Shown here: positions 7,427 through 23,817 of the stretch, piece after piece
Layout of the letters: every line of letters begins with the position of its first letter
How positions within the stretch are numbered: the first letter of the stretch is position 1
NCBI RefSeq assembly: GCF_016765585.1
Contig: NZ_JAESWC010000002.1
Coordinates: 558,001 to 622,000, forward strand
Length of the DNA stretch: 64,000 nucleotides
Source of the DNA: Clostridium rhizosphaerae
GTDB lineage: Bacteria > Bacillota > Clostridia > Clostridiales > Clostridiaceae
Reading direction: 5' to 3'
The notes under the pieces: model-generated
Database searches by the model: none
What the model was told of the DNA's origin: nothing
The model's input: the letters and a program-made list of their open reading frames with translations, nothing else
Made by a program: the position numbers and the translations under genes

Positions 7427-7440
7427 TATTTTTATTTAAA

Positions 7441-8337: not shown

Positions 8338-8471
8338 ATTTATCCCCCCAGCTTTAGAATTTTATGCCATGCTTATTTTATCATTATTTATTATAAAAAA
8401 CTATAAATTGCTTAGAATTTTTTTCTGATATATACTTATAATGTATACGATTTAAGGGGGATTAATATTTT

Positions 8472-9707
8472 ATGAATTCAAACACAGAAATCAATAGCAA
8501 AATGCTAGATAAGCATGGCTTTAAAGGCATACTAGCAAATTTGATGAAAGGCCTTCATACTGACAGAGACTTTACGTTATTTTTAATTGTAGGACTTTTT
8601 ACAGGAATAGCAAGTGGAATAAATTCTACAATTTTTAATAACTTTTTAAGCGACACCTATAAGCTCTCTGCTTCTGCAAGAGGAATAGTAGAATTTCCTC
8701 GAGAACTCCCCGGAGCTCTTATAGTTGTTGTTTTAGCTCTTCTTTCTTTTCTTGGTGATATAAAAAGTTCAGTACTGGGAATGCTGTTTGCAGCATTAGG
8801 AATGCTAGGATTGGGCATGTTTTCGCCTACCTTTGCAAGCATGCTGGTTTGGATGATGCTCTTAAGTTTAGGCACTCATATTTTTATGCCTTTATCCGCA
8901 GGCATAGGAATGTCTTTATCTAAAAAAGAAAACTTCGGCTCCAGACTTGGAAAGTTTAGTGCCTATAATTTAATAGCTTCAATTATAGGCTATACAATTG
9001 TGTGGCTAGGATTTAATTATCTTGGACTTACTTATAAAATAGCATTTTTAATAGCTGCATTTTTTTATGTATTCGCTGCAGTATTTCTTGGCCTTATGAA
9101 AACTTCTAAGCCTAAAAAGAAAAAAATTAAATTTATATTTAGAAAAGAATATAAACTCTACTATATTTTAAGCATAGTAAATGGTGCTAGAAAACAAATT
9201 TTCTTAACCTTCGCACCTTGGGTACTCATTCAAGTATATCATCTTAGCCCTCCTACTTTTGCAATATTAGGCTTTATAGTATCAGCGCTAAGCATTTTAA
9301 CCAGAACAGTTATAGGAAATGCAATTGATATAAAAGGAGAACGTTTTGTTCTTTCACTTGAAGCAATAATATTAATTATTATTTGCCTTGGATACTCCTT
9401 TGCTGCCGACATTGCACCAGCTAGTATAGCTGTTATTATAATTGCTGCCTGCTATATTATAGATAACTCAATGAGCGTAGTTGAAATGGCACGTTCAACC
9501 TATGTTAAAAAGATAGCTGTCCATCCTGAAGATGTAACTCCAACTTTATCGGCAGGAACAAGTTTTGATCATGTTATAGCAATGACCATTCCATTCTTTG
9601 GAGGAATATTATGGGCTAGTTTTGGATACAAATACGTATTTCTTGCAGCTGCCTTTATAGCAATCTTAAATTTATTTCTATCTATGAAAATTAAAATAGA
9701 AGCTTAA
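8472..9707 (+). CDS. Major facilitator superfamily transporter
   Basis: The 411-residue protein has about 12 hydrophobic segments in two halves joined by a basic loop (KTSKPKKKKIKF, about 210-222), the general MFS architecture. The N-terminal 35 residues are hydrophilic. The start ATG follows AAGGGGGATTA. A plausible -10 TATAAT lies at about 8440. Substrate and direction are unknown. The gene converges on the nucleobase permease gene, with which it shares a bidirectional terminator. Confidence 0.85.
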   Translation: MNSNTEINSKMLDKHGFKGILANLMKGLHTDRDFTLFLIVGLFTGIASGINSTIFNNFLSDTYKLSASARGIVEFPRELPGALIVVVLALLSFLGDIKSSVLGMLFAALGMLGLGMFSPTFASMLVWMMLLSLGTHIFMPLSAGIGMSLSKKENFGSRLGKFSAYNLIASIIGYTIVWLGFNYLGLTYKIAFLIAAFFYVFAAVFLGLMKTSKPKKKKIKFIFRKEYKLYYILSIVNGARKQIFLTFAPWVLIQVYHLSPPTFAILGFIVSALSILTRTVIGNAIDIKGERFVLSLEAIILIIICLGYSFAADIAPASIAVIIIAACYIIDNSMSVVEMARSTYVKKIAVHPEDVTPTLSAGTSFDHVIAMTIPFFGGILWASFGYKYVFLAAAFIAILNLFLSMKIKIEA

Positions 9708-9713
9708 AATAAC

Positions 9714-9745
9714 AGAAGCTGTCTCATCAAAGCGAGACAGCTTCT
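9714..9745. terminator. Bidirectional terminator between MFS and UraA-type permease genes
   Basis: AGAAGCTGTCTC and GAGACAGCTTCT form a perfect 12-bp stem with an 8-nt loop. It closes the MFS gene on the plus strand and the 11-gene catabolic cluster on the minus strand. Confidence 0.85.
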
Positions 9746-9751
9746 ATTATT

Positions 9752-11035
9752 CTAATTATTTTCTTCAGTCTTAATAGTATATTCCTCATTCATAATCTTG
9801 AGTTTGCTTAAAATATAGAATATTATTGATAGAATTATTCCAACTACTGCAGCAAGAGCCATTCCCTTTAATTCTACTGTATTTATAGTTATTTTTGCTC
9901 CACTTACGCCTATAACGAAGGTTACTGCAGCTAAAACCATATTATAGTTCTTGCTGAAGTCAACTTTTTGTTCAACCAGCATTCTTATACCTGAAGCTGC
10001 AATAACACCATAAAGAAGTATAGTTATACCACCCATTACTGGAGTTGGTATGCATTTTATAGCAGCAGCAACTTTTCCTATACAAGAGAATATAATTGCA
10101 AATACAGCAGCACCTCGTATTACCCAAACAGAATAAACACGAGTAATAGCCATTACACCTATATTTTCACCATAGGTAGTATTTGGAGGTGAACCTGCAA
10201 AGCCTGATAAAATATTACTAATACCATCACCTAATAAGGAACGGTGTAAACCTGGGTCCTTTATTAAATCTGTTTCAGTAATATTTCCTGTTACTATTAA
10301 ATGTCCTATATGCTCTGCAAGAACTACTAAACAAGCTGGAGCAATAATGGCTATAGCGTTAAAATCCAAAACAGGAGCTGTGAACTTAGGAAGCTCAAAC
10401 CAAGGAGCTGCAATTATAGGTTTTACATCAAACTGTCCCATAAAAGAAGCAAAAATACACCCTGCAATTACCGCTATGAGTATTGGAATTATCTGAAGGA
10501 ACTTTCTAAAGAGTACAGAACCAAATACTCCTATAGCTAATGTAAATAAAGCCACTGCGATAACCTTAGAGTTTGGATCTCCAACCAAGCCTGCCTGACT
10601 GGCTGCTACTGGTGCAAGTTCAAGGCCTATAACCGCAACCACTGCTCCCATTACAGCTGGAGGCATAACTATATCTATCCACTTTATACCCGCGTATTTT
10701 ATTATAAACGATACAATAACAAAGAATAAGCCAAAAAAGATAAATCCTGATTGAGCGTGTGAGAAGCCTCCATATTTAGAAATAATAAGTGTTGTAGGCG
10801 CGATAAACGCAAAGCTTGAACCTAGGTATGCAGGTATTCCGCCTTTGGTAACTAAGGTATATACTATTGTTCCTATACCATTCATAAGCAGCGCGATAGC
10901 AGGATTAACCCCGAGTAAAAAAGGTACTAATATAGTAGCACCAAACATTGCGGTAAGATGTTGAAGGCTTAGCGGAATAGTTTCTATAATAGGTAATTTT
11001 TCATGAATACCAACTATTCTTCTCATTAAATTCAC
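9752..11035 (-). CDS. NCS2-family nucleobase permease, UraA type
   Basis: This 427-residue, roughly 14-segment membrane protein belongs to the NCS2 (nucleobase:cation symporter-2) family. The signature PNTTYGENIGVMAITRV (about 284-300) matches the UraA/PyrP uracil-permease branch rather than the xanthine/urate branch, which usually shows a SQNVG-type motif. A uracil-like pyrimidine is therefore the best guess, although UraA relatives such as RutG are broader. It is the last gene of the cluster, 18 bp after the molybdenum hydroxylase large subunit, so it probably imports that enzyme's substrate. Cation-coupled uptake is family knowledge; the actual substrate is inference. Confidence 0.88.
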   Translation of the reverse strand: MNLMRRIVGIHEKLPIIETIPLSLQHLTAMFGATILVPFLLGVNPAIALLMNGIGTIVYTLVTKGGIPAYLGSSFAFIAPTTLIISKYGGFSHAQSGFIFFGLFFVIVSFIIKYAGIKWIDIVMPPAVMGAVVAVIGLELAPVAASQAGLVGDPNSKVIAVALFTLAIGVFGSVLFRKFLQIIPILIAVIAGCIFASFMGQFDVKPIIAAPWFELPKFTAPVLDFNAIAIIAPACLVVLAEHIGHLIVTGNITETDLIKDPGLHRSLLGDGISNILSGFAGSPPNTTYGENIGVMAITRVYSVWVIRGAAVFAIIFSCIGKVAAAIKCIPTPVMGGITILLYGVIAASGIRMLVEQKVDFSKNYNMVLAAVTFVIGVSGAKITINTVELKGMALAAVVGIILSIIFYILSKLKIMNEEYTIKTEENN

Positions 11036-11053
11036 ACTCCTATAATTTAATTA

Positions 11054-13393
11054 TTATTTATGGATGGCTTTGTAAACTCTGTCTGCAGTTAATGGAACCT
11101 CATAAAGCTCAGTTCCTATTGCATTAGACACTGCATTACCAATTGCTGAAGTGATAGAAATCATTGGGTGCTCAGCGCAGCCTCTCGCACCATAAGGACC
11201 ATCTAATTGAGGTGTTTCAACAAAATACACTTCCATCTTCTCAGGTAAATCCTGCATGGTTAAAATCTTATAATCTACAAAATTTCTAGTTAAAAGCTTT
11301 CCGTCCGAATTATAGAGAAGAGTTTCTGAAAGCGCTGTACCAAGTCCTTGAATAATTCCTCCAATCGCTTGACCTTTAATAAGAGTTTGATTTATTACAT
11401 GACCTACATCAAAGGAAGAAACAATTTTTAATATTTCTATGTCTCCAGTACTAGTATCAACTTCAATTTCTACACCATGAGCACCATAAGTCCAATCAAG
11501 TCCAGGCCTTCCCTGTCCAGTCTCCTTATCAAGATTTGAAAGTCCTTGAGCAATGCTCTTTCCTCTTCCTATTAGAGGTCCTCCTATGGAGTTTCCATTG
11601 CTGTAAACATATCCAATAGCCAGCTTATCAAAGGCTACTCTTTCTTCTGGATGCTGCTTAACATATACATATCCATCTTCTAAAGCAAGCTCATGTTTTA
11701 CGGCACGGAGAACTACAGAGGCTACCTCCATAATTTGATTTATAAGATCATCACATGCATCCAGTACTGCGTTGCCTGCTAATATGAGCATACGGCTTGC
11801 AACAGTCTGCCAGTCGTAAGGGCCCGAATTTGTATTGCTCTCATAAACAGCTTTTACCTTTTCAATTGGAAGATGAAGCTTTTCAGCAACCATCTGAGCC
11901 AGTGCTGTATAAGTTCCCTGCCCGTAATCAATACCGCTTACATTAAATCTTAAGGTTCCATCCTCGTTCATTTGTATTATGGCAGAAGTTGCAGAGGAGC
12001 TTGGCATAGCAGGTGCCTTATGAAGTACAGCAATTCCCTTTCCTCTGTACTTTCCTGTTTTCTTTTCTCTATCTTTTTCTTCATCCGTCTTTGTTATGTT
12101 ATAACCAATTTTTTCTGCTACTAGTTCAAGACATTTATCTACCCTTCCAGTGTTTTCATTAACAAGTTCTCCTGTTATTGTTCTAGATCCTGGCTTTAGT
12201 AAATTCTTCATCCTAAACTCTAAAGGATCCATACCTAGAGCTTTAGCAATAAGTTCTCTTTGTCTTTCAATTGCCCAGAAAAATTCAGCATGCCCAAATC
12301 CTCTATAGGCAGTACCAAATACATGGTTTGTATATACAGTATAGGAATCCAGCTTTACATTTTCTATATCATAAGGTCCAACACCCGAATATCCTGAAGC
12401 TCTTCCTATGTTTACTCCGTAATCAGCATAGGCTCCTGCATCCCAGAGGTACTGAATTTCTTCGGCAACAATTTTACCTTCCTTTGTTACTCCAGTTCTT
12501 ACTTTAGCTAAAAGGCCTTGCCTGCATGGAAAAGTACATACTTCTTCTTCTCGAGTAGCTACAAACTTTACAGGTCTTCCATTTGAGTATTTGGACAGAA
12601 GAGCAACTAAGGGTTCAAAGTGGATGCCTGCCTTTCCTCCAAAGCCTCCACCTACATAGGGTACAGTAACTTCTATTTTATTTTTTGGTATTCCAAGTGC
12701 TACTCCAAATAAATCTCTAACTGCAAAAGGAGATTGAGCACTGGACCAAATTTTTATTCTGTCCTCTGAACCCCATTTTGCAATGACTGCATGCGTTTCC
12801 AGAGGTACATGAAGAACTTGAGGCTGATAAAACTTATTTTCTAAAACCAAGTCTGCTTTTGAAAAGCCTTCTTCTAAATTCCCTTTTCTTAATTTAAAAT
12901 GATTTGCAATGTTTGTGCCCGGCTCAGGAAAGAATACATTTTCAATCCACTTATAACTTTCAATGTGTTCATGAACCAAAACACTTTTCTCCCTAAAAGC
13001 TTCTTCAATGTCTTGAACAACAGGCAAAGGCTCGTATTCAATTTCTATTAAACTTACAGCTTTTTCTGCTGTATCAATATCGACTGCTGCAACTGCTGCA
13101 ACCGCTTCACCATAATACCTTACCTTGTCTACTGCAAGTATAGGTTTATCCACCATATAAATTCCAAGTTTATAATAAGCCTCCTTACCTGTAAGTACTG
13201 CTTTAACTCCAGGCAGTGCCTTAGCTTTTGAAATATCTATATTTTTTATCTTAGCATGAGCATAGGTACTGGTTTTTAATTTGGCATAAAGCATACCTGG
13301 AAGCTTCATATCTTGAACATATTCTGCCTCTCCTGTAACCTTTTCTACTCCATCGACTCTTGGTATGCCTTTACCTACATACTTATTATTCAT
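11054..13393 (-). CDS. Molybdenum hydroxylase large subunit (xanthine dehydrogenase family)
   Basis: This is the molybdopterin-binding subunit of a three-protein hydroxylase that adds a water-derived oxygen to an electron-poor ring or aldehyde carbon. The 779 residues show the usual order: an ab-hammerhead domain (about 15-130), then two Mo-binding domains with YVGGGFGG (247-253), AYRGFG (362-367) and GARGCAE (735-741). Glu741 matches the catalytic Glu1261 of bovine xanthine oxidase and Arg364 matches Arg880. The position of xanthine-binding Glu802 is Ala255 (GGKA instead of GGKE), so xanthine may not be the substrate. The ATG overlaps the stop of the Fe-S subunit gene, indicating translational coupling. 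Confidence 0.92.
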   Translation of the reverse strand: MNNKYVGKGIPRVDGVEKVTGEAEYVQDMKLPGMLYAKLKTSTYAHAKIKNIDISKAKALPGVKAVLTGKEAYYKLGIYMVDKPILAVDKVRYYGEAVAAVAAVDIDTAEKAVSLIEIEYEPLPVVQDIEEAFREKSVLVHEHIESYKWIENVFFPEPGTNIANHFKLRKGNLEEGFSKADLVLENKFYQPQVLHVPLETHAVIAKWGSEDRIKIWSSAQSPFAVRDLFGVALGIPKNKIEVTVPYVGGGFGGKAGIHFEPLVALLSKYSNGRPVKFVATREEEVCTFPCRQGLLAKVRTGVTKEGKIVAEEIQYLWDAGAYADYGVNIGRASGYSGVGPYDIENVKLDSYTVYTNHVFGTAYRGFGHAEFFWAIERQRELIAKALGMDPLEFRMKNLLKPGSRTITGELVNENTGRVDKCLELVAEKIGYNITKTDEEKDREKKTGKYRGKGIAVLHKAPAMPSSSATSAIIQMNEDGTLRFNVSGIDYGQGTYTALAQMVAEKLHLPIEKVKAVYESNTNSGPYDWQTVASRMLILAGNAVLDACDDLINQIMEVASVVLRAVKHELALEDGYVYVKQHPEERVAFDKLAIGYVYSNGNSIGGPLIGRGKSIAQGLSNLDKETGQGRPGLDWTYGAHGVEIEVDTSTGDIEILKIVSSFDVGHVINQTLIKGQAIGGIIQGLGTALSETLLYNSDGKLLTRNFVDYKILTMQDLPEKMEVYFVETPQLDGPYGARGCAEHPMISITSAIGNAVSNAIGTELYEVPLTADRVYKAIHK

Positions 13394-13866
13394 TATTCCA
13401 CCTCACCCTTAACTACATACTCAATTGCTTCAATAATAGTTTCATAACCTGTGCAGCGACACAAATTTCCCTGCATAGCTTCTTTTATATCTTCTCTAGT
13501 AGGTGATGGATTTCTATTTAAAAGCGCTCTAGCTGACATAATCATACCTGGCGTACAAAATCCGCACTGAAGTGCATTTTGCTTAATAAATGCCTTCTGA
13601 AGCTCTGAGAGTTCTCCATTTTTTGCTTCTCCCTCAATAGTTAAGATTTCTCCATCCTTCGCCTCTAAAGCCATTACCAAACAAGAGTTTACAGGCTTAC
13701 CATTTAAAATAACAGTGCAAGCCCCACATTCTCCGGCACCACAGCCTTCCTTTGTGCCAGCTAAACCAAGCTCCTCTCTTAAAAGCCAAAGTAAAGTCTT
13801 GTTTGGTGCAACCTCTGTAAAAATCTCTTCTCCATTAACAAAAAGATGCAATTTTTCTTTATTCAT
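13393..13866 (-). CDS. Molybdenum hydroxylase [2Fe-2S] subunit
   Basis: The 157-residue electron-transfer subunit carries both clusters of the family. The plant-ferredoxin-type cluster uses CGAGECGAC plus a downstream Cys (about 42-72), and the helical C-terminal cluster uses CGFC and CRC (about 97-133). It passes electrons from the Mo site to FAD. It is encoded between the FAD subunit (3-bp gap) and the Mo subunit (1-bp overlap), the common order in bacterial CODH/XDH-type operons. Confidence 0.95.
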   Translation of the reverse strand: MNKEKLHLFVNGEEIFTEVAPNKTLLWLLREELGLAGTKEGCGAGECGACTVILNGKPVNSCLVMALEAKDGEILTIEGEAKNGELSELQKAFIKQNALQCGFCTPGMIMSARALLNRNPSPTREDIKEAMQGNLCRCTGYETIIEAIEYVVKGEVE

Positions 13867-13869
13867 TTT

Positions 13870-14712
13870 CTACACCTCTTTCGCTAAGCTTTCTAACAAT
13901 TGCTTAGTTAGATATCTTGCCATCGCAATTCTATAATCTCTCGATGCTCTCTGGTCACCAATAGGATTAATAACAGACACAACCTTTTCTATTATTTCTT
14001 CTTGAATCTTAACATTTTTAATACTATATTTAGTTGCCGCTTCAAAGTTATCGAGAAGCACTGGTATTGGCGCCACCGCTCCTAAGGCAAGCTTTAAGCT
14101 TCCATCTTCCTTAATAAAACCTGCTGCTCCTATCTGTGCCAGGTCATGCCCTTTAATCCTGGATTTTCTAAAATAATGTCCCTTTCCCTTTAAGTATGGG
14201 AATATTATTCTTACAGCTATTTCATTTTCCTTAAGTACAGTTTTCTTAACACCCAAGAAGAACTCTTTTAAAGGTATCCGCCTTAAGCCCTGTTTTGAAA
14301 CTGCCTCCACAATACCTTCAAGCACTAAAGAAGGTGCAAGCATATCACCAGCAGGTGAAGCATTGCAAATATTCCCCAGCATTGTGGCGCGATTTCTCAG
14401 CAAATAATTAGCCAGAGTTTTACCTGCTTCTACTAGAATAGGATAGTTTTCTCTAACATCCTTTGCTTCTATTATCTCATTTAAGGTTACAGCTCCCCCA
14501 ATTGATAAGCCTATGTCCTGTGTAAATTTCAATTCTCTCATCTTTGCTATTTTCTTTATATCAATCAAATATTTGCAGCTAATCATATTATCTTTAAGAT
14601 TAATTATTAAATCTGTTCCTCCAGCTAAAACCTTAGCTTCTTTACCGTATCTGTCTAGAAGCTCACAAGCCTCTGCTATGGATTCAGGCCTAAAATATTC
14701 TTGCTCAAGCAC
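13870..14712 (-). CDS. Molybdenum hydroxylase FAD-binding subunit
   Basis: The 280-residue protein matches the CoxM/XdhB flavoprotein family: an N-terminal PCMH FAD fold with AGGTDL (about 31-36) and a TLGNICNASPAGD-like pyrophosphate loop (about 110-123), then a CO-dehydrogenase flavoprotein C-terminal domain. It would transfer electrons from the Fe-S subunit to NAD+ or another acceptor. The start is GTG at 14712 after AGGGGGT. It is the first gene after an internal terminator-like hairpin, so its expression may depend on read-through from the cyclase gene. Confidence 0.92.
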   Translation of the reverse strand: MLEQEYFRPESIAEACELLDRYGKEAKVLAGGTDLIINLKDNMISCKYLIDIKKIAKMRELKFTQDIGLSIGGAVTLNEIIEAKDVRENYPILVEAGKTLANYLLRNRATMLGNICNASPAGDMLAPSLVLEGIVEAVSKQGLRRIPLKEFFLGVKKTVLKENEIAVRIIFPYLKGKGHYFRKSRIKGHDLAQIGAAGFIKEDGSLKLALGAVAPIPVLLDNFEAATKYSIKNVKIQEEIIEKVVSVINPIGDQRASRDYRIAMARYLTKQLLESLAKEV

Positions 14713-14733
14713 TTTACTACCCCCTATTCTATA

Positions 14734-14789
14734 TAAAAATAGCCCACTAAAAATACTAAATCCATATAATACTGTATTTTCAGTGAGCC
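14734..14789 (-). terminator. Terminator/attenuator hairpin inside the catabolic cluster
   Basis: On the minus strand a 16-nt arm (14789-14774) pairs fully, allowing G-U, with 14756-14741 across a 17-nt loop and is followed by ATTTTTAT. Only about 20 nt separate it from the GTG of the FAD subunit, leaving no room for a new promoter, so it may attenuate transcription into the hydroxylase and permease genes. Confidence 0.7.
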
Positions 14790-14813
14790 ATAACTGTAAT
14801 TTAAATTTATATT

Positions 14814-15599
14814 TTATTCTTCATCAAAGCCAACAATACGGCAAATGCAGGATTCTCCACCAACAAACTTCCAAGGGAAAGCTCCTATAACTAAACGCTT
14901 ATTTAAAACTTTATCTATTTCCCCGCCAAGATTTTCAGCATGAATTATATTTAAAGGAAACAGCGGAATATGCATTACCTGATAGTCACTGTCTGGCATT
15001 AATTCCTCCATAGTCTTACCATACTTTCTTCTTAAATAAGCATCACATTCCTTAGCTTCTTTAGGCTGCCACTCACGAATTTTTGTATTCATAGGATGAT
15101 CAGCAGAACCACAGTCAACGCCTATCCATTTAATCTTCTTTCTTATACACCACTCTTCAAATTCTCTTAAGGGTCCAGGATGTTTAACCATATATCTTAC
15201 TTCATCTGCTTCTGGCTGATCCCAAGCATATTTATGATAGCCTGTATTTATAATAAGGATATCTCCTTCTTTAACTTCTACTCTATCTTCAATATCTTTT
15301 GAAGTATATACACCGTAATCTTCAGCTATATCGCTTAAATCTACAACTACACCTTCCCCGCAGAGAAAATCAAGCTCTAGGCTTGCAATGTCTCCTCCAT
15401 GTGTACAAAAGTGAAGAGGTCCATCAAGATGTGTACCAACGTGATTTGAATGTGTCAATACTTGACCATTAGCTCCATTTGGTGATAATCTTTTAAAAAA
15501 TTTTATTTGTAGTGGCTCATAAGTTGGCCATGGTGGTGTTAAATGGCTTATAGGCTGACTTAAATCATACATCTTTATATTGTTCCAATTACTAATCAT
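14814..15599 (-). CDS. Cyclase-family metal hydrolase (kynurenine formamidase/isatin hydrolase fold)
   Basis: The metal-binding signature HxGTHxDxPxH is complete as His53, His57, Asp59 and His63 in the 261-residue protein. The family uses Zn2+ or Mn2+ to hydrolyse amide bonds; kynurenine formamidase and isatin hydrolase, which opens a cyclic amide, are the characterised members. In this operon, between an oxidative hydroxylase and an FdrA-type carbamoyltransferase, opening an oxidised N-heterocyclic ring is the natural role. That is inference, and the substrate is unknown. The 5' neighbour DUF1116 gene is 18 bp away. A 101-bp gap with an attenuator hairpin follows. Confidence 0.88.
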   Translation of the reverse strand: MISNWNNIKMYDLSQPISHLTPPWPTYEPLQIKFFKRLSPNGANGQVLTHSNHVGTHLDGPLHFCTHGGDIASLELDFLCGEGVVVDLSDIAEDYGVYTSKDIEDRVEVKEGDILIINTGYHKYAWDQPEADEVRYMVKHPGPLREFEEWCIRKKIKWIGVDCGSADHPMNTKIREWQPKEAKECDAYLRRKYGKTMEELMPDSDYQVMHIPLFPLNIIHAENLGGEIDKVLNKRLVIGAFPWKFVGGESCICRIVGFDEE

Positions 15600-15617
15600 A
15601 AAACAAACCCCCTGATT

Positions 15618-17024
15618 TTATAATTTTTCTGCTAATTTTATAATTGCATTAGCAAAACATTCCCAAGGCGGATTAACAAGTCCTGCTCCAACTTGGCCTA
15701 TGCCTGCTTCTTTATGGGCAATTCCTGTATTTATTTGAGGAAGTATATTTTTTTCAATTACTTTTCTTACATCTACCGCTGTAGCTGTTCCCCTAAAATC
15801 AAGAATAGGAATTGAAAATGTGTTGCTTTCTCCAACTGTTATTTCATACATCTTTTCTGAGTAATTCAATGCATCCTGTGGAACTCCGCCAACAAACTGC
15901 ACAATTGCTATAGCAGCAGCCATTGCAAAGCCGCCATAGCCGCAGGTTTCAGTAATAGCGCTGTCACCTATGTCAGGATTGCAGTCTTCTTCTTTAAAAC
16001 CTGGAAATAATAATCCTTTAACCATTTCTGCTGGTGCAGTAAACCACTCGCCTTTAAGTCCGCTTACTCTTATACCAAAATCAGTACCATTTCTGCTCAT
16101 AGTTACAATTGCAGTGCTGTTTTTAACACCATCTGCAGCATCCAAAATACACTTTGCAGCCGGCATTGAAAGATTCAAGAAAAAGTGATCATTTCCATTT
16201 ACAAATTTAACTATATCTACAAGCTCCTTTTCAGGAAGTTTTGCTTCTATCAAATAAGGCATAATAGTTCTAATGAATAAAGAAGTACCCGCCTTATTTC
16301 TATTGTGACATTCATCTCCCATATGCATGGCTTGCGCAATTATAGTCTTAATATCTATACCGCCAGATAGTCTTATAGCCTTTTGAAGACCAGGAGCTAA
16401 AACATCCTTCATCCAGTTCAGTCTATTTATAACCTCACCGCTATAAGCTCCAAACCTTAATACTTTGCCTAATCCTTCATTTAAGGTGCAATAGGCAAAG
16501 TTTTTAAGGGTTCTATTTTCTACAACAAACACTGGCATTGAAGGAGATATTATTCCCGCCATTGGCCCTACTGAATTATGCTCATGGCAAGGACTGAATT
16601 TAATTTTTCCTGAAGAAGCAAGTTTCACTGCTTCCTCTTCATTACTAACTCTGCCTTCAAATATAAGAGCGCCTATTATAGCTCCTTTCATAGGCCCGGC
16701 CATTCTTTCCCAGGTTATTGGCGGACCTGCATGCAAAATCGTATCCTCATCCATATAAGATATAACATCTATAGCTCTTTGAATATCTACCAAAACAGCC
16801 TGTGAAGTATTTATTCTTCTTAATACCTCTAAATTTGCTTCATCTATTTCCGGTCTGTTTGAAAGTTTATCCAATGCTTTAATAAGTCCAACCTGGCCTC
16901 TGGCTATTGGTTTCCATTGAAGGTGAATTGTGTCAACATTAATGTTTTTCAGTTCATTAGCAAAGCCTTCATTGCCAAGATTTACTACCTTTATGCTTTG
17001 TTTAAACAAATCCTTTATTGCCAT
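15618..17024 (-). CDS. DUF1116 protein (YlbE/AllG-like), carbamoyltransferase component
   Basis: The 468-residue protein belongs to DUF1116, represented in E. coli by YlbE (AllG), which sits beside fdrA in the allantoin locus. FdrA, YlbE and YlbF together have been assigned as the oxamate carbamoyltransferase that phosphorolyses oxalurate to oxamate and carbamoyl phosphate. The start MAIKDLFKQSIKVVNLGNEG and the central AGPPITWERMAGPMKGA and GPMAGI segments are typical. The ATG lies 10 bp inside the end of fdrA, so the two are translationally coupled. Whether oxalurate or another ureido acid is used here is not visible. Confidence 0.85.
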   Translation of the reverse strand: MAIKDLFKQSIKVVNLGNEGFANELKNINVDTIHLQWKPIARGQVGLIKALDKLSNRPEIDEANLEVLRRINTSQAVLVDIQRAIDVISYMDEDTILHAGPPITWERMAGPMKGAIIGALIFEGRVSNEEEAVKLASSGKIKFSPCHEHNSVGPMAGIISPSMPVFVVENRTLKNFAYCTLNEGLGKVLRFGAYSGEVINRLNWMKDVLAPGLQKAIRLSGGIDIKTIIAQAMHMGDECHNRNKAGTSLFIRTIMPYLIEAKLPEKELVDIVKFVNGNDHFFLNLSMPAAKCILDAADGVKNSTAIVTMSRNGTDFGIRVSGLKGEWFTAPAEMVKGLLFPGFKEEDCNPDIGDSAITETCGYGGFAMAAAIAIVQFVGGVPQDALNYSEKMYEITVGESNTFSIPILDFRGTATAVDVRKVIEKNILPQINTGIAHKEAGIGQVGAGLVNPPWECFANAIIKLAEKL

Positions 17025-18583
17025 AAGCCGCTTCCTCCTTCAAAGCCCAAAGTTAATTCAGCTGCAAGACTTGCTGCCCTTACATTGCTGTCAAAAACAA
17101 CGAAACCAGCATCCTTTAGCTTCTTAACTTGTTCTTCATAATTTTGAGGATCTTCTTTTGTTCCAACAAGAGCAGCTATCCAGAACACTTTTCTTTTTTG
17201 TGCGTCAAGCTTAATATTTGCAATTGCTGCTGCTTCAGCCGCTATACCTGCAGGATCTATATGTGATCCATGCCCAAGTTCTACATCTAAAAGTATAACT
17301 GCAGTTTCAGAATCTAGGGCTTCTTGTACAATTCTCTTATTTCTAAGACTAGGCTCAATCATTGGATGTGGTTTTCCCCTGGTAAAAAAATCATCACCCA
17401 TATCCAGGAAGCAATTTCCCTGACTAATTTCTATATTTGAAAGTTCCTCTCTCTTATCAAAAGGAATATTAGAAAACATAGGTATACCTTTTCTTCTAAA
17501 CACTGTCATTGCTTCATCGCAAAGGGTTCCCCCACCATAAATTGCTCTGATATATTTTTGATTCGGCTTTCTAGCAGCCTTAAATTCCGCTAAAGCCGTT
17601 GAAAAATCCTCAGAGTTTTCAGTAATTATTTCTTTTTCTAAGGAAAGAGATACAGCCTTAGCTGCGGTTTCTTCTAAATTGCTGCATTTTATTATATTCT
17701 TCCCAGTTACCTCCATATCTTTGGAACCTAAGAGGCATAAAACTACTGGTTTATTTAAATTTTCAGCACAACTAAACACTTTATAAGCTACTTCAGCTGC
17801 AGGTGGCTTTGAGATTATTACAACCACTTTCGTTTCTTCATCTTCCTTTAAGGCTTCTAGTGCACTAAGCATTGTTCTTCCTGAAACCTTTGCACTTAAA
17901 TCTCTTCCTCCAGTACCAATAGCTTGAGATACTCCTCCGCCAAAGGAATGGATAAGAGTTGTAACTTGCTGAAGCCCTGTACCCGAAGCTCCAACAATTC
18001 CAATATTTCCTCTTCTCACTCTATTAGCAAAACCTAGTGGCACTCCGTTTATTATAGCGGTACCACAGTCAGGCCCCATCATCAGCAGTCCTTTTTCGTT
18101 TGCTAAATTTTTTAGTTCTATTTCTTCTTCAACGGTAACATTATCGCTAAATAGAAAAACATTCATATTATTTTCAAGTGCAATCTTAGCTTCTCTTGCA
18201 GCATAAATTCCTGGAACAGAAATTACAGCCATATTATAACCTGCATCGAGCCTTGCAGCTTCTTCAATTCTTTCAAAGCTTTTTTCATTGCCTTGACTTT
18301 TCTTTTTTCCTCTATTACTCAATAGATCTTCTATTTTATTTAAAGCATTATTTAAAGCCTCTTCATTTTCTGTGCTTATGCCTATCATTAAATCGTTAGG
18401 AGAAGCAGTTTCACAATCCTTCGAAAGAAGTCCTACATGTCTTAGGGAATCTTTATTTAATTCAGTTCCCATTCCGACTAATACTTCTATAACTCCATTT
18501 AATTTGGAAACTTCTCCCGAAATCTTCATAAGCGTTACAGAATCAAAATAAGCATTAGATTTTACAATAGTTTTAGTGTGCAA
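17015..18583 (-). CDS. fdrA: FdrA-like protein (AllF-like), carbamoyltransferase component
   Basis: FdrA is built like a fused succinyl-CoA synthetase: a Rossmann CoA-binding-like half with MGPDCGTAIINGVPLGFANR and GIVGASGTGLQQVT (about 175-220), and a ligase-like half with LDMGDDFFTRGKPHPMI. With DUF1116 and DUF2877 it forms the presumed ureido-acid phosphorylase. The open frame reaches a TTG at 18604. AAGGTG placed 6 nt before the TTG at 18583, and alignment of MHTKTIVKSNAYFDSVTLM with the E. coli FdrA N-terminus, support starting at 18583 (522 residues). It overlaps the DUF2877 gene by 11 bp and the DUF1116 gene by 10 bp. Confidence 0.9.
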   Translation of the reverse strand: MHTKTIVKSNAYFDSVTLMKISGEVSKLNGVIEVLVGMGTELNKDSLRHVGLLSKDCETASPNDLMIGISTENEEALNNALNKIEDLLSNRGKKKSQGNEKSFERIEEAARLDAGYNMAVISVPGIYAAREAKIALENNMNVFLFSDNVTVEEEIELKNLANEKGLLMMGPDCGTAIINGVPLGFANRVRRGNIGIVGASGTGLQQVTTLIHSFGGGVSQAIGTGGRDLSAKVSGRTMLSALEALKEDEETKVVVIISKPPAAEVAYKVFSCAENLNKPVVLCLLGSKDMEVTGKNIIKCSNLEETAAKAVSLSLEKEIITENSEDFSTALAEFKAARKPNQKYIRAIYGGGTLCDEAMTVFRRKGIPMFSNIPFDKREELSNIEISQGNCFLDMGDDFFTRGKPHPMIEPSLRNKRIVQEALDSETAVILLDVELGHGSHIDPAGIAAEAAAIANIKLDAQKRKVFWIAALVGTKEDPQNYEEQVKKLKDAGFVVFDSNVRAASLAAELTLGFEGGSGLWQ

Positions 18584-19484
18584 TGTTTTCACCTTGCCTT
18601 CCAATTAACTCAAGAGCTTTTAAAAAACCTGTATATATTCCACAAGCTAAGTCACTTCCTGATGTAGCACCTACGCCAACTAATACTTTTAAAGCATTGA
18701 TTATTTCTTCAACACTTCCGCAGATAACAGTATATATAAGGTTTTGAATATACTCATGATAAAGATTATTAGCAGCATTTTTAAGCATGCTGCTGCTTAT
18801 ATAATTAGTTCTATCTAAGTTTTTAAATATTAAATTATTTAATACTTTACGGTTGTATATATAATCACCGCAGGAATTAAAAACTGCTAAAAAACCAGTT
18901 AAGAAATCATCTCCAGTTGGCGTTAATCCTGGTCCTAAACCTATTAAACCTTTTACCGCACTAGAAAGTTTTTCAGCATTATTAAAATTTAAATTTTCAA
19001 AAGCCTCTGCAAAATAAGCCTCTCTTTGCTTATAAAGCCTTTGAAAAGCACTGTTTTTCTTTGCATATATATTTAAAGCTGCTTTTAATACTGATACATT
19101 ATCCCTTTTAAGCTCATTAAGCTTCCACCTAAAACCGCTGTCTAGAGTGCCCCTCCATAACCTTGCATTTCTTAAATCAATATTTAACTTATTATTAAAC
19201 TCTAAACTATATCCTGTATATAAACATCCATTAGTTTTATCAATACCTAGATATAGAAAACCCTCATCACAAAACTCCTGTATCTCAACATAAACTCCCA
19301 TATGCCCTATTTTAGACGTCACAACGGACAAAAGTCCAAAGTCTGTATCTAAATTTATTACGTTATGGAAAACACTGTGAAGTTTTAAATTTTCATATAT
19401 ATCTAAGCTTTCTAGTATTGACTTAAAGCTCTCACCTATATAAACAGCAGATGTAGAAACTATAAACTTTTCTTTTGAAAACAA
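18573..19484 (-). CDS. DUF2877 protein (YlbF/AllH-like), carbamoyltransferase component
   Basis: The 303-residue protein matches DUF2877, the family of E. coli YlbF (AllH), third member of the FdrA set. The family core GLGPGLTPTGDDFLTGFLA is present near 180-198, followed by a helical region and GVGATSGSDLACGIYTGF near the C-terminus. Its individual role in the complex is not known to me. Translation begins at TTG 19484, 8 nt after AGGAGGT. The 3' end overlaps fdrA. Confidence 0.85.
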   Translation of the reverse strand: MFSKEKFIVSTSAVYIGESFKSILESLDIYENLKLHSVFHNVINLDTDFGLLSVVTSKIGHMGVYVEIQEFCDEGFLYLGIDKTNGCLYTGYSLEFNNKLNIDLRNARLWRGTLDSGFRWKLNELKRDNVSVLKAALNIYAKKNSAFQRLYKQREAYFAEAFENLNFNNAEKLSSAVKGLIGLGPGLTPTGDDFLTGFLAVFNSCGDYIYNRKVLNNLIFKNLDRTNYISSSMLKNAANNLYHEYIQNLIYTVICGSVEEIINALKVLVGVGATSGSDLACGIYTGFLKALELIGRQGENIAH

Positions 19485-19497
19485 CTATATAAACCTC

Positions 19498-19839
19498 CTA
19501 AGCTAAAGGTTTAAAAATAAAGCCATAATAGTCTTTACCTATACCTTCCTTTATAACACCTACCGTAGGTATAAGCTTCATTCCTATGCTTAACACTTCA
19601 GCATCTATTTGACCGCTGACAGTCAATCCATTTTTAAACTTTACAATACCAAAGGCTAGATAAGGCTTCATATATCCTTCCGGCAAATTATAAACCTTAG
19701 TGTAAGTAACTAGAGTTACTTCACCTTCTAATAGAATTTCTTCAAATTCACGAGCACCGCATTTTCTACATACGTAATGCTTTGGGTGATGAAGCTCTCC
19801 GCAGCCTGTGCATTTATATGCATACATATTATTTGCCAT
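19498..19839 (-). CDS. DUF35 OB-fold protein with rubredoxin-like zinc ribbon
   Basis: The 113-residue protein has a Cys4 zinc ribbon (CTGC and CRKC, about residues 10-29) followed by an OB fold (VTLVTYTKVYNLPEGY and after), the standard DUF35 arrangement. DUF35 proteins are obligate partners of thiolase-fold enzymes, for example in archaeal thiolase/HMG-CoA synthase complexes, PhlACB acyltransferases and Ltp2 aldolases, where they bridge or bind the CoA substrate. The gene for the thiolase-fold partner ends 2 bp upstream, so a complex is very likely. The ribosome binding site AGGAGGAATAATT before ATG 19839 is strong. Confidence 0.9.
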   Translation of the reverse strand: MANNMYAYKCTGCGELHHPKHYVCRKCGAREFEEILLEGEVTLVTYTKVYNLPEGYMKPYLAFGIVKFKNGLTVSGQIDAEVLSIGMKLIPTVGVIKEGIGKDYYGFIFKPLA

Positions 19840-19841
19840 AA

Positions 19842-21038
19842 TTATTCCTCCTCCTTTGTTAGTATTGTAGCAACTACGTTGTTTCCAAAACCGCCAAAGT
19901 TTACAGCAAGTCCAGCCTTTGCTCCTTCAACCTGCCTTCCTGCTGCTTCCCCCCTAAGTTGTCTAACAAGCTCAACTATTTGAGAAACTCCTGTCGCACC
20001 AAGTGGATGTCCCTTTGCTTTTAAGCCTCCTGAAGTGTTTATAGGAATTCTTCCGCCTATTTTAGTTTCACCGTTTCTAGCTGCAATGTGTCCTTGACCT
20101 CTTTCAAAGAAACCAACTTCTTCAGATTCTACTATTTCTAATATCTGAAACGCATCATGCAGCTCGGCAACATCTATATCTTCAGGCTTAAGCCCTGCCA
20201 TCTTATAAGCTTTTTGTGCAGCAAGTCTAACAGCGAGTAAATCTGTTGGTACTTCTCTTTCTGCAACAGCATGGGTATCGGTGGCTTGACCTATACCTGC
20301 AATTTTAATTGGCTTTTTATCAAATCTTTCTGCTTTATCCATAGCACATAAAAGAACTGCTGCAGCTCCATCAGATACTGGGCACACATGGTAAACTCTT
20401 AACGGGTCCGCCACATAAGGGTTTATAACATTTGCATCCTCATCCTCAGTTATTGCATAAAGATTTGGCACAAGTCTTATATGAGCTACTGGATTATGCA
20501 TAGCATTTTCATGGTTTTTAACAGATACTATAGCTAAATCCTTTTCTGTAACTCCATACTTCTCCATACACAACCTAGTGAACATCCCTGCAAAAGCTGG
20601 AAGTGTTAATCCATAATTATATTCAGCTTCCGGATGAAGCATTGTTGCAACAAAATCTGTCCCTTCCCAACCGCTTATTACTCGCATCATTTCTCCGCCT
20701 ACAACAAGTACTGCGTCGCAAAGTCCGCTTGCTATGGCCATATATCCAAGCTTCACTGCAGAAGCTCCCGAAGCTGGGCCATTTTCAATAGTTTCTGCCA
20801 TAGCTGGTCTTAGATTTAAAGTATCAACTAGAGCTGAAGCAACACCGCTTTGGCGGTTTACTAGACCAGAACCCATAGAAGCTACTAAAACTTGATCTAT
20901 ACCATGATTTTCATCAAGTTTTACACCGGCATCGTCTAGAGCTTCAACCGCAGCAGCACAAAGCATATCAGTGAATGTCCCCCCTGACCATTTACCGAAT
21001 CTTGTGTGCCCTACACCAACAATTCCTACTTGACGCAT
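19842..21038 (-). CDS. Thiolase-fold protein lacking the nucleophilic cysteine
   Basis: The 398-residue protein has the SCP2/archaeal-type thiolase fold, including ELHDAF (His294) and GHPLGATG (His344). At the position of the acyl-accepting Cys it reads ENGPASG, with Pro88 where relatives have Cys, and the C-terminal motif is NFGGFG. A classical thiolase ping-pong reaction is therefore unlikely. Cysteine-less thiolase-fold proteins with DUF35 partners are known as retro-aldolases (Ltp2 in steroid side-chain breakdown), so C-C cleavage of an acyl-CoA is one option. The DUF35 gene follows at once and the GNAT-like gene overlaps the 5' end by 13 bp. Confidence 0.88.
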   Translation of the reverse strand: MRQVGIVGVGHTRFGKWSGGTFTDMLCAAAVEALDDAGVKLDENHGIDQVLVASMGSGLVNRQSGVASALVDTLNLRPAMAETIENGPASGASAVKLGYMAIASGLCDAVLVVGGEMMRVISGWEGTDFVATMLHPEAEYNYGLTLPAFAGMFTRLCMEKYGVTEKDLAIVSVKNHENAMHNPVAHIRLVPNLYAITEDEDANVINPYVADPLRVYHVCPVSDGAAAVLLCAMDKAERFDKKPIKIAGIGQATDTHAVAEREVPTDLLAVRLAAQKAYKMAGLKPEDIDVAELHDAFQILEIVESEEVGFFERGQGHIAARNGETKIGGRIPINTSGGLKAKGHPLGATGVSQIVELVRQLRGEAAGRQVEGAKAGLAVNFGGFGNNVVATILTKEEE

Positions 21039-21709
21039 CTTTTATATCCTGGAATTTGTGCGTAGGTTTCTGGGAGGATTGGATTCATAGCTGATTCCAT
21101 AAGCTTTTCACTAACCGGACGGCGTCCAGTACACTTGTTTGCCTTATGTTTTTCCCAAAGTGCCTTTGTTAAAACATAAGTAGGAACTCCACCTAATTCA
21201 TGCCAAACTTCTGGTCTTGATTCTAATTCATATTCAATCATCCAGCGCTTGAAACCATTTGGACTTTCAGCTACTATCCAAACCTCTTCTTGATTTAAGT
21301 AATCAAGATGGTATTCCATCTTTGCCGCAAATAATTGAGCACCTATTCTTAACCCTTGTCTTAAAGTCATAGTATGATAAGACATTCCAACCTTTTCATC
21401 AACCATACGGCCATTAACAATACCTACTATAACCCCATCAATAGTTCCAATTAAACAGTACTCATCTTTAACTCTATAGCGATAGTAGCCTAAAAGCTCA
21501 GAATACACTCTGGAGGCTACTATGTCATAGAAGTCTTTTTCAACGTTCATTAAAGGCTTTACAGCTTCAAGAACCATAGGAACCTCATCCCTTGTTATTT
21601 GTCTTACTACCATTTTCTCTCCAGTTGCTAAGGTTATATACTTAGCAGGATACTCTACCATTGGAGTTTCAACTGGTCTTAAGCTCTGTTCCATCTTATC
21701 GATTATCAT
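21026..21709 (-). CDS. GNAT-like protein of unknown function, first gene of the catabolic cluster
   Basis: The 227-residue protein has a GNAT-like pattern (ITRDEVPMVLEAV near the N-terminus, YCLIGTIDGVIVGIVNGRM as the beta4 strand region, then QGLRIGAQLF as a possible pyrophosphate loop), but the loop is not a clean Q/RxxGxG/A. An N- or CoA-linked acyl transfer is only a guess. The first ATG (21718) lies inside the ribosome binding site AAAGGAT, so the ATG at 21709 is preferred. A C-terminal tail of about 50 residues (TGRRPVSEKLMESAMNPILP) has no domain I recognise. It leads the 11-gene transcript and overlaps the thiolase-fold gene. Confidence 0.7.
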   Translation of the reverse strand: MIIDKMEQSLRPVETPMVEYPAKYITLATGEKMVVRQITRDEVPMVLEAVKPLMNVEKDFYDIVASRVYSELLGYYRYRVKDEYCLIGTIDGVIVGIVNGRMVDEKVGMSYHTMTLRQGLRIGAQLFAAKMEYHLDYLNQEEVWIVAESPNGFKRWMIEYELESRPEVWHELGGVPTYVLTKALWEKHKANKCTGRRPVSEKLMESAMNPILPETYAQIPGYKRCVK

Positions 21710-21853
21710 AATAATCATCCTTTCATAAAATAAATTAATTTCTAAAGCTAATGAAATACTGAGTACTCCCTCCTTCCCTTTATGAAAGCTTGATTATTTT
21801 GATAAGATACCTAATATATTCTTTTCTCTCTATATGAATTTCCGTTTTATTTT

Positions 21854-21886
21854 GTATTCATGGAAAAGATTAATATATATGAATAC
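21854..21886. repeat. Inverted repeat in the leader of the catabolic cluster
   Basis: GTATTCAT and ATGAATAC are perfect 8-bp arms 17 nt apart, inside the roughly 220-nt untranslated leader. It could be an operator or an RNA hairpin. No regulator gene is linked. Confidence 0.4.
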
Positions 21887-21939
21887 CTTACAGAAATAAT
21901 CATCACGCTCACTATAATTTATATGAGTTTGGAAGTTTA

Positions 21940-21968
21940 TTTATATTAATCCTTGTAAACATTTTCAA
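21940..21968 (-). promoter_or_regulatory. Sigma-A-type promoter for the 11-gene catabolic cluster
   Basis: On the minus strand TTGAAA (21968-21963), a 17-bp spacer and TATAAA (21945-21940) make a good consensus promoter. Transcription would start near 21933, giving a leader of about 220 nt before the first gene. The 390-bp gap between the two divergent genes holds this, the inverted repeat and the adk promoter. Confidence 0.6.
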
Positions 21969-22041
21969 AATATTCTCAACTTTTAAATTCTAGTCTTAAG
22001 AATCTTCATTACGATTGTTATATTAGGCTAAAGTCCTTTAT

Positions 22042-22071
22042 TTGTAAGAAACAATTTAGTGATCTTATAAT
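22042..22071 (+). promoter_or_regulatory. Possible promoter of the adenylate kinase gene
   Basis: TTGTAA (22042-22047), an 18-bp spacer and TATAAT (22066-22071) lie about 38 bp upstream of the adk start codon. Confidence 0.5.
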
Positions 22072-22108
22072 ATAATAATTATATAATCTTATTTTGCTGG
22101 AGGTAGGA

Positions 22109-22759
22109 ATGATATTAATACTGCTTGGTCCTCCTGGAGCAGGTAAAGGAACTCAAGCCGCCTTGATAAGTGAGAAATATAATATCCCTCACATATCTAC
22201 TGGAGATATATTCAGGCAAAATATAAAAAATAAAACAAAGCTTGGATTAGAAGCAGAAGGTTATATCCATAATGGACTTCTAGTACCTGATGAACTAACC
22301 ATAAAGATAATAGAAGAAAGACTTAATGAAAAAGATTGCAGAAATGGTTACTTATTAGATGGTTTTCCTAGAACTGTTTTTCAAGCTGAATCCTTAAAGA
22401 AATATTATTTGGGTATAAAAGAACATATTGATTTAGTTTTCTTTCTTGAGGTTAATCTCGATCTAGTTATTAAGAGGAATACCGGGAGACGCATATGCTC
22501 TTGCTGCGGAAGGTGTTATCATGTATATTTTACACCTCCAAAGCATAAAGATAAATGCGATACCTGTGGAGGTTGCCTTATTCAAAGAAAAGATGATACT
22601 GAAAGTGTTATATTAGAAAGACTTTCTGTATATTTAGAGCAGACAATGCCATTAGTTGATTATTATGTCAAAGCAAAAATTCTTTACAAACTCTGCGGTG
22701 ATGAAGAAATAACAAAAGTTTTTGAAAACATGTGTAAAATAATAGATAACTGTAATTAA
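22109..22759 (+). CDS. adk: Adenylate kinase, zinc-lid type
   Basis: Adenylate kinase interconverts ATP + AMP and 2 ADP. The P-loop GPPGAGKGTQ sits at residues 7-16, with the AMP-site STGD, the DGFPRT motif, and a lid holding four cysteines (CSCC and CDTC), the zinc-binding lid typical of Gram-positive enzymes. The open frame reaches back to a TTG at 22094. GGAGG at 22099-22103 is placed 5 nt before the ATG at 22109, so the protein is 216 residues. Its location away from the ribosomal protein cluster, where clostridial adk normally sits, suggests a second copy. It is divergent from the catabolic cluster. Confidence 0.93.
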   Translation: MILILLGPPGAGKGTQAALISEKYNIPHISTGDIFRQNIKNKTKLGLEAEGYIHNGLLVPDELTIKIIEERLNEKDCRNGYLLDGFPRTVFQAESLKKYYLGIKEHIDLVFFLEVNLDLVIKRNTGRRICSCCGRCYHVYFTPPKHKDKCDTCGGCLIQRKDDTESVILERLSVYLEQTMPLVDYYVKAKILYKLCGDEEITKVFENMCKIIDNCN

Positions 22760-22790
22760 AAAACCACATTGGCTTTCAATGTGGTTTTTT
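22758..22790. terminator. Bidirectional terminator between adk and ispH
   Basis: AAACCACATT and AATGTGGTTT form a 10-bp stem with a 7-nt loop, flanked by A and T runs on both sides, so it can serve the two convergent genes. Confidence 0.85.
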
Positions 22791-22799
22791 TAACTCAAT

Positions 22800-23657: not shown

Positions 23658-23740
23658 CCTAACTTCACAATCCTTTCTTGCTTAGCCACTTAGATATTTT
23701 ATCATAAAAACTCCATATTGTGTATGTAATATTTGTTACG

Positions 23741-23776
23741 ATAAAAATCACCATGCTTGTGCATGGCGATTTTTAT
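23741..23776. terminator. Terminator of the Met-rich repeat protein gene
   Basis: The 16-nt arms ATAAAAATCACCATGC and GCATGGCGATTTTTAT pair with one mismatch around a TTGT loop. T runs lie on both strands, and the hairpin sits downstream of the minus-strand gene ending at 23818. Confidence 0.8.
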
Positions 23777-23817
23777 CACTAATATTTACTACTTCTATTT
23801 TTTTAAACATCAATCCT

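Follow-up and report, generated by a model that had tools for sequence, protein, structure and literature searches.

Among the routes of uracil breakdown, of which the reductive, the oxidative, the Rut and the URC route are named in an excerpt of PMC12507026 (2025), the oxidative pyrimidine pathway proceeds via barbituric acid and an opened ureido acid to a malonate-level product (PMC3758960, in excerpt). The reductive urate pathway of Escherichia coli, which includes the phosphorolytic enzyme YgeW, is an anaerobic breakdown of an N-heterocycle with energy gained as carbamoyl phosphate (PMC12507026, in excerpt), and the three-subunit oxamic transcarbamylase AllFGH of E. coli (FdrA, YlbE, YlbF) has been shown to act on oxalurate/oxamate (PMC11326118, in excerpt); allFGHK genes of nitrifiers have been read as oxalurate use (PMC12625717, in excerpt). 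Here we analyse a stretch of 64,000 nucleotides of Clostridium rhizosphaerae (assembly GCF_016765585.1, contig NZ_JAESWC010000002.1, positions 558,001 to 622,000; hereafter the window), in which a minus-strand operon encodes all three oxamic-transcarbamylase subunits, as identified by Pfam and NCBIfam, together with a uracil-type permease, a molybdenum (Mo) hydroxylase and a cyclase-family hydrolase. Judged by its gene context, the operon probably leads from uracil via barbiturate and ureidomalonate to carbamoyl phosphate.

Substrates, products and directions of the steps are assigned here from gene context. The permease UraA would bring in uracil (perhaps also thymine), which the Mo hydroxylase would oxidize to barbiturate with water as oxygen source, the electrons passing to flavin adenine dinucleotide (FAD) and a carrier. 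Opening of the barbiturate ring by the cyclase-family metal hydrolase would give ureidomalonate, AllFGH would split this with phosphate into malonamate and carbamoyl phosphate, as the E. coli enzyme does with oxalurate, and a carbamate kinase, in the host an unlinked copy, would turn carbamoyl phosphate into ATP. The C3 remainder would be channelled via malonyl-coenzyme A (CoA) to acetyl-CoA, in many relatives by a nitrilase or amidase and a class III CoA-transferase, with a Na+-pumping decarboxylase in some, and in the window by the GNAT, thiolase-like and DUF35 proteins; for these last two steps, malonamate to malonyl-CoA to acetyl-CoA, confidence is lower than for the part from uracil to carbamoyl phosphate.

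The oxidative pyrimidine pathway, whose model organism is presumably Rhodococcus, has with uracil dehydrogenase, the barbiturase Bar and ureidomalonase the same intermediates as proposed for the operon. However, the known barbiturase belongs to the AtzD/Bar family while the candidate of the operon is a cyclase-family protein, and ureidomalonase yields malonate and urea whereas phosphorolysis would yield malonamate and carbamoyl phosphate. Uracil transport, which supports assignment to that pathway without defining it, is represented in the window by UraA, whereas the salvage-type genes (uridine phosphorylase, cytosine-deaminase-like) accompany the cluster in relatives alone. The reductive urate pathway differs by its reductive dearomatisation and a classical transcarbamylase, and the operon shares with it homology to the xanthine dehydrogenase (XDH) family alone.

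The operon consists of 11 co-directional open reading frames (ORFs; 9752-21718) with junctions of 18, -1, 3, 101, 18, -10, -32, 13, 2 and -13 nt in the order of Table 1; such tight junctions (<=101 nt) are typical of an operon. Since a genome of the same family (G016, locus L096) encodes the same eleven genes in another order, the gene set is not a chance assembly. The sequence-only reading, an earlier note on this DNA, had named eleven co-directional genes and the families of the permease, hydroxylase, cyclase and AllFGH genes, which the ORF list, Pfam (scanned with ten of the operon proteins) and NCBIfam bear out; its end at 21709 falls on the second ATG of the last ORF, which extends to 21718. 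The hairpin beyond the operon end is a likely terminator. A promoter scan 5' of the operon found no minus-strand site, and an Rfam search of 6000-26000 gave nothing at the gathering threshold.

Table 1. Genes of the operon and the adjoining hairpin, with positions in the window
Feature	Position	Strand	Basis
12-bp hairpin between operon end and convergent MFS gene	9714..9745	scored on +	1 found, 0.1 expected in shuffles
UraA-type permease	9752..11035	-	NCBIfam NF007995
Mo-binding large subunit, xanthine-dehydrogenase-family hydroxylase	11054..13393	-	Pfam
[2Fe-2S] subunit of hydroxylase	13393..13866	-	Fer2, Fer2_2
FAD subunit of hydroxylase	13870..14712	-	FAD_binding_5, CO_deh_flav_C
Cyclase-family (PF04199) metal hydrolase	14814..15599	-	Pfam, fold prediction
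AllG (DUF1116) subunit	15618..17024	-	PF06545 340 bits
AllF (FdrA) subunit	17015..18604	-	NF004760; Ligase_CoA/CoA_binding in Pfam
AllH (DUF2877) subunit	18573..19484	-	PF11392 82.5 bits, cut-off 25
Small zinc-ribbon (DUF35/ChsH2-type) protein	19498..19839	-	PF12172 (zf-ChsH2) 29.8 bits, cut-off 23.2
Thiolase-fold protein	19842..21038	-	PDB sequence alignment
GNAT-fold acyltransferase-like protein	21026..21718, start possibly 21709	-	Predicted model

Gene content, conservation and recurrent partners can be observed directly in other genomes, where the sequence-only reading had suggested looking for the same gene set. Cyclase and AllG occur together in 79 loci, namely the window, 46 loci of a cyclase-based scan of GTDB genomes (92 stretches confirmed, 80 loci kept) and 32 regions from an AllG search, or in 76 loci after near-identical ones are merged; the 34 of these 76 that name a phylum represent 14 phyla, although many are metagenome-assembled genomes (MAGs) and single assignments may be wrong. 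Carriers with a species name include Acidaminobacter hydrogenoformans DSM 2784 and Marinitoga lauensis. The AllG search covered 398 genomes of the phylum of the window, with 60 positive including the window's own, and 78 relatives, with 7 positive, again including the window's own, and none among three genomes of the same genus; the spread among relatives is patchy, and the host has one AllG copy. In the 66 AllG regions examined (60 from the phylum sample, 6 from relatives; five of the 60 positive genomes, G085, G132, G282, G289 and G410, were left out), the cyclase is present in 32 when all ORFs are counted and in 28 with non-overlapping ORFs. Three loci with near-identical cyclases (L052, L161, L139) were dropped from trees, conservation counts and neighbour best matches and merged as groups in the exclusion test described below, and L156, with its cyclase ~4 kb from AllG on the opposite strand, is a doubtful member.

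Within 9.5 kb of the cyclase, the 79 loci encode the Mo subunit (56), UraA-like (22), GNAT (22), carbamate kinase (21), nitrilase (21), class III CoA-transferase (18), thiolase-like (13), amidase (9), MmdB-type decarboxylase subunit (7, 6 distinct), cytosine-deaminase-like (5) and uridine phosphorylase (3) proteins. When loci without linked AllG are included, a uridine phosphorylase gene lies <=240 nt from the cyclase in six loci, five of which were scored, with L023 (294.9 bits) and L018 (298.8) over the cut-off of 280.3 bits and L019 (278.1), L024 (276.7) and L014 (265.6) under it, the sixth being L015. Cytosine-deaminase-like genes directly next to the cyclase score 409.6 bits in L140 and 432 bits in L023, short of the cut-off of 438, and a deaminase-like protein of L036 matches weakly (275.7 vs 438 bits). 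The neighbours are in keeping with a cyclic ureide derived from uridine and cytosine, which would be uracil, and with a product in need of deamidation, activation with CoA and decarboxylation of malonyl type.

Carbamate kinase is encoded by 29 of the 30 sampled genomes with cyclase and AllG (the exception is G375) vs 104 of 338 without AllG (Fisher 3.7e-13, kinship ignored), and by 57 of the 60 AllG genomes vs the same 104 of 338 (p 3.7e-22, kinship ignored; AllG sets without cyclase contribute), comparisons which take both 398-genome scans as the same genomes, given equal handles and total. The host enzyme (G000:C6:89189-90127) scores 398.5 bits at a cut-off of 358 and, as the sequence-only reading had it, lies outside the window; no AA_kinase match of the host falls inside the window. 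Import, ring hydroxylation, ring opening and phosphorolysis of a uracil-type substrate, as that reading had proposed, gain in strength from the uridine phosphorylase of the six loci, the deaminase-like genes, the carbamate kinase and the malonate-type genes. As to malonamate, which it gave as an end product beside carbamoyl phosphate, the pathway most likely runs past it.

The permease reaches 639 bits against the NCBIfam uracil permease model NF007995 (cut-off 477) and 321.6 bits against Pfam Xan_ur_permease, with the xanthine permease model under its cut-off, and would import uracil. The Mo subunit matches MoCoBD_1/2 and Ald_Xan_dh_C in Pfam and stays under every NCBIfam cut-off listed, the best match being XdhA with 537 vs 780 bits. 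Among the 48 cluster Mo subunits of at least 650 aa, the Arg of A(Y/F)RGFG is kept in 48 and the Glu of GARGxxE in 47, with one gap; the position after GGFGxK (GGFGGK) holds Gln in E. coli XdhA/XdhD but Ala in 45 of the 48, and Ala likewise in the window protein. We take the Arg and Glu of these motifs and a Glu/Gln after GGFGxK to be the catalytic residues of xanthine dehydrogenase. The enzyme of the window lacks both a score over the cut-off and the Glu/Gln; it is a candidate uracil (pyrimidine C6) hydroxylase.

A purine role, in which xanthine/urate derivatives are handled by the operon with its hydroxylase as xanthine dehydrogenase, would be in line with the XdhA models as best NCBIfam matches and with Mo/Se maturation genes in several clusters (XdhC-like in 6 loci, YqeB-like in 4; YqeB of L146 with 379 bits, cut-off 220), but is improbable in view of the low score, the Ala for Gln and the uracil-type permease. 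Furthermore, E. coli-type purine/allantoin genes are nearly absent around the cyclases: within 10 kb, the 76 loci hold one HyuA (42% identity), one YgeY (26%) and two AllW (25-26%) and no best match to Gcl, SsnA, YgfK, YgeW, YgeX, AllB, AllC, AllD or AllE, these being best matches to a small reference set and less than a full annotation. A partial Gcl-like ORF is found 11 kb from the cyclase in L150 and, at ~8.5 kb, another in L071, which has no AllG. In two loci with no Mo hydroxylase in view, a gene of the aldehyde-ferredoxin-oxidoreductase family stands where the hydroxylase is expected (L018 466-2388, L023 6655-8553; that of L023 scores 263 bits, far under the cut-off of 868), possibly a tungsten enzyme performing the same oxidation.

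The cyclase protein of the window matches PF04199 with 118 bits and contains the metal motif HxGTHxD...H; H53, T56, H57, D59, H63, H220 and E222 are each kept in >=97% of 73 sequences. Its predicted model (predicted local distance difference test, pLDDT, 78) finds isatin hydrolases, which are known ring-opening enzymes, as first-ranking folds (E 1.8e-13, template modelling (TM) score ~0.6). Fold and metal-binding motif are common to the protein and the PF04199 members isatin hydrolase, which opens a cyclic amide, and kynurenine formamidase, whereas the ~20% identity in structural alignment, its own conserved family and the pyrimidine-like context set it apart. It is coded on one strand with AllG in 74 of the 76 loci (median gap 63.5 nt) and would be a barbiturase of another family than AtzD/Bar; a PF09663 search, the model for the latter, found no match in the host genome, nor in the control genomes. 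In Acidimicrobiia (L076, L078, L079, L081), a more distant cyclase adjoins a nitrilase gene with AllFGH not in view, perhaps a purely hydrolytic variant.

AllF reaches 499.7 bits against FdrA NF004760 (cut-off 433). E. coli FdrA differs at just two of 63 near-invariant AllF positions; for this reason the phosphorolysis chemistry is probably retained. AllH has no NCBIfam match. In AllG, E. coli differs at 12 of 100 near-invariant positions, and 72 of 75 cyclase-linked AllG, including that of the window, fall into a group of 85 without E. coli AllG (quick tree, Shimodaira-Hasegawa-like approximate likelihood ratio test, SH-aLRT, 98); 13 members of the group have no cyclase in view and three cyclase-linked AllG lie outside. 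Conservation count and tree cover AllG of at least ~370-380 aa. Against three allantoin-type sequences, cyclase-linked AllG stand apart at positions N241, N278, A369 and I374. A piece of ~50 residues stands at the N-terminus of the window AllG and at the C-terminus of E. coli FdrA (AllG residues 8-54 match FdrA model 508-554 with 25.9 bits and PDB 3dmy 428-477 with 22.7 bits), and this displaced segment suggests an AllF-AllG contact there. The separate AllG group would fit another substrate or acyl group than in E. coli; oxalurate and ureidomalonate are both N-acylureas, one CH2 apart. Subunits, N-acylurea type of substrate and, in many cluster relatives, the carbamate kinase partner are thus those of E. 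coli AllFGH, but the operon is distinguished by the lack of allantoin genes, by its AllG group, by the FdrA C-terminal piece on AllG and by an acid that would be one CH2 longer.

Five AllF/AllG sets without cyclase (L155, L157, L159, L164, L189) form a supported AllG group of their own, four with a carbamate kinase gene. In L170, L175 and L178, AllG genes stand in tandem with a single AllF, and neighbouring genes resemble deaminases weakly (30-33% identity); the tandem genes may provide two substrate subunits for one enzyme.

The established action of AllFGH on oxalurate/oxamate (PMC11326118, in excerpt) raises the alternative that a five-membered ureide, e.g. hydantoin, is oxidized to parabanate, opened by the cyclase to oxalurate and split by AllFGH into oxamate and carbamoyl phosphate, oxamate being passed on via oxalate to oxalyl-CoA by the amidase and a formyl/oxalate-type CoA-transferase. 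A parabanate-induced oxamate transcarbamylase has been reported from a streptococcus (by a title cited in PMC3364942, in excerpt), and the CoA-transferase of L016 has its best NCBIfam match with the oxalate type (379 bits, under the cut-off of 522). Nevertheless, this course is unlikely: it leaves the uridine phosphorylase, the cytosine-deaminase-like genes and the uracil permease without a role, (methyl)malonyl-CoA-type Na+ decarboxylase genes are present, and the cyclase-linked AllG are separate from E. coli AllG. The lack of a Gcl best match within 10 kb of the 76 cyclases counts in the same direction, Gcl being, we assume, a thiamine diphosphate enzyme related to oxalyl-CoA decarboxylase, which itself was not searched for.

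Returning to uracil as substrate, the C3 unit could be handled by the three genes at the 5' end of the operon, whose roles are assigned with more reserve. The GNAT-like protein has a predicted GNAT fold (pLDDT 91; nearest folds N-acetyltransferases with a best E of 1.2e-7 and moderate TM of mostly 0.4-0.5 among the best 50 of 840 Foldseek matches), no NCBIfam match and, in a PDB sequence search, no match. At the thresholds used, nitrilase, amidase or class III CoA-transferase genes occur in none of 21 loci with GNAT vs 29 of 55 without (Fisher 7.7e-6, uncorrected), and the two states require >=10 changes on the cyclase tree, from which cyclases <180 or >330 aa were left out. From this pattern, the GNAT protein is suggested to convert malonamate to malonyl-CoA. 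As a malonyl-CoA decarboxylase (MCD)-type enzyme it is not favoured, because no such structure is among those best 50 matches and because Na+ decarboxylase genes neighbour it in two distinct loci, L072/L161 and L162.

In the thiolase-like protein, IENGPASG stands where 7yvy/6esq have IEAACASG / VEAACASG; ENGPASG is found in all 17 sequences (ORFs of at least 300 aa and at least 45% identity), with the nucleophilic cysteine of thiolases replaced by proline and ELHDAF and GHPxGATG retained. All 13 loci in which a thiolase-like gene lies near by also encode a DUF35-type protein, which points to the zinc-ribbon protein as partner of the thiolase-like one. Matches in the PDB are 6esq, 7pxp, 5m3k and 6ok1, and pairings of a thiolase fold with a DUF35-type protein presumably include archaeal acetoacetyl-CoA thiolase, BbsAB, PhlACB and Ltp2-ChsH2; the exchange of cysteine for proline sets the operon protein apart from these known pairs. 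KSQ domains decarboxylate malonyl groups, and by analogy the cysteine-less fold might decarboxylate malonyl-CoA, the least secure part of the scheme.

Among 23 GNAT-bearing loci, 15 including the window have a thiolase-like gene, three rows representing two distinct loci (L072/L161, L162) have the Na+-pumping decarboxylase and five (L018, L022, L028, L046, L060) have neither; in L022 and L028 the sequence stops close to the GNAT gene. The DUF35/thiolase-like/GNAT trio, on whose role the sequence-only reading is silent, looks like a replacement of amidase plus CoA-transferase and, less surely, of the decarboxylase. For the thiolase-like pair alone, replacement of the Na+ decarboxylase is a weak proposition: the two share no locus (13 vs 7 loci), but Fisher gives 0.60, the host has two Na+-pump beta genes elsewhere in its genome, and of seven searched genomes of the thiolase type just two (G308, G248) lack such genes. 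In L135, the beta subunit of the decarboxylase reaches 514 vs 190.6 bits with a model spanning several substrates.

Thymine or another 5-substituted uracil as main substrate, with methylmalonamate and methylmalonyl-CoA to follow, could be read from the decarboxylase alpha subunit of L161, whose best match is methylmalonyl-CoA decarboxylase (884.9 bits, under the cut-off of 998.8). Two genomes, G351 (L132, L166) and G417 (L146, L150), carry two clusters each with different cyclases (~80% and ~50% identical to the nearest reference), as expected for two bases and two enzyme sets, perhaps one per base, e.g. uracil and thymine. Still, uridine phosphorylase and the cytosine-deaminase-like genes feed towards uracil, and the window holds no thymine-specific pointer; thymine as main substrate is improbable.

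Several observations weigh against uracil as substrate or against the coherence of the gene set. Most loci show no pyrimidine-specific neighbour, and the window has neither uridine phosphorylase nor cytosine deaminase. In the host genome, the uridine phosphorylase gene lies unlinked in a salvage-type stretch and the carbamate kinase gene (locus L102) next to genes resembling ornithine carbamoyltransferase and, by eye, arginine deiminase, so that the operon could at best borrow the two enzymes. For the Mo subunit, NCBIfam models and further sequence comparison gave no closely related characterised protein, and in 23 of the 79 loci, part of them truncated, none was seen near the cyclase. In L007, L008, L010 and L011, three of them Elusimicrobia MAGs and one without assignment, the gene right after the cyclase is of ornithine-carbamoyltransferase type (336 bits in L010, the sole one scored; cut-off 281) and AllFGH is not in view; a classical transcarbamylase may replace AllFGH there, or the gene may be just argF. 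Presence of AllG on the cyclase tree needs >=16 changes, a figure inflated by cut contigs. The exclusion of the GNAT module is not significant in phylogenetically independent pairs (median p 0.25; too few informative pairs) and is blurred by single-linkage grouping at 85%/75% identity (p 0.07, 1.0). Sampling was pattern-based or confined to the phylum of the window, with many MAG loci and cut contigs.

With these points considered, the course from uracil to carbamoyl phosphate remains the likely one. More tentative, and on balance doubtful in all its parts together, is an undescribed widespread uracil route, probably of anaerobes, in which a uracil dehydrogenase of Mo-hydroxylase type, a barbiturase with the cyclase fold, an AllFGH transcarbamylase specific for ureidomalonate, a GNAT enzyme running in reverse (malonamate + CoA to malonyl-CoA + ammonia) and a KSQ-like thiolase/DUF35 pair would release nitrogen as ammonia and conserve energy as ATP and acetyl-CoA without free urea. 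The open-access matches listed, with subscription journals and preprints outside their scope, include no cyclase-type barbiturase, ureidomalonate phosphorolysis or oxidative uracil pathway of an anaerobe, so the statement of the sequence-only reading that no pathway of such form is described stands uncontradicted there; none of the open-access papers searched mentions both Acidaminobacter hydrogenoformans and uracil. New would be the way the parts combine, the exchanged enzymes and the wide spread, the principle being not wholly new; the oxidative pyrimidine pathway would be joined here to oxamic-transcarbamylase chemistry.

Other features stand apart from the operon. As noted earlier from the sequence, no dihydropyrimidinase homolog is in the window, the hydantoinase-family gene of the host being located elsewhere (C12:1291795-1293150; 619 bits, cut-off 393). 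The window further contains a Met/Pro-rich protein with 39-bp tandem repeats (23818-24732), a tmRNA gene with the tag AKNDNLALAA (36711-37067) and one of two apparently adenylate-kinase-like genes of the genome (22094-22759; the other at L205 2677-3435).

If the proposed route is true, energy-conserving breakdown of uracil would extend across at least 14 named phyla, often known from metagenomes only, and would bear on the recycling of nucleic acids. It would offer gene candidates for uracil dehydrogenase, for a second kind of barbiturase and for a new transcarbamylase specificity, and would be a warning against labelling every AllFGH set as oxalurate/allantoin use.

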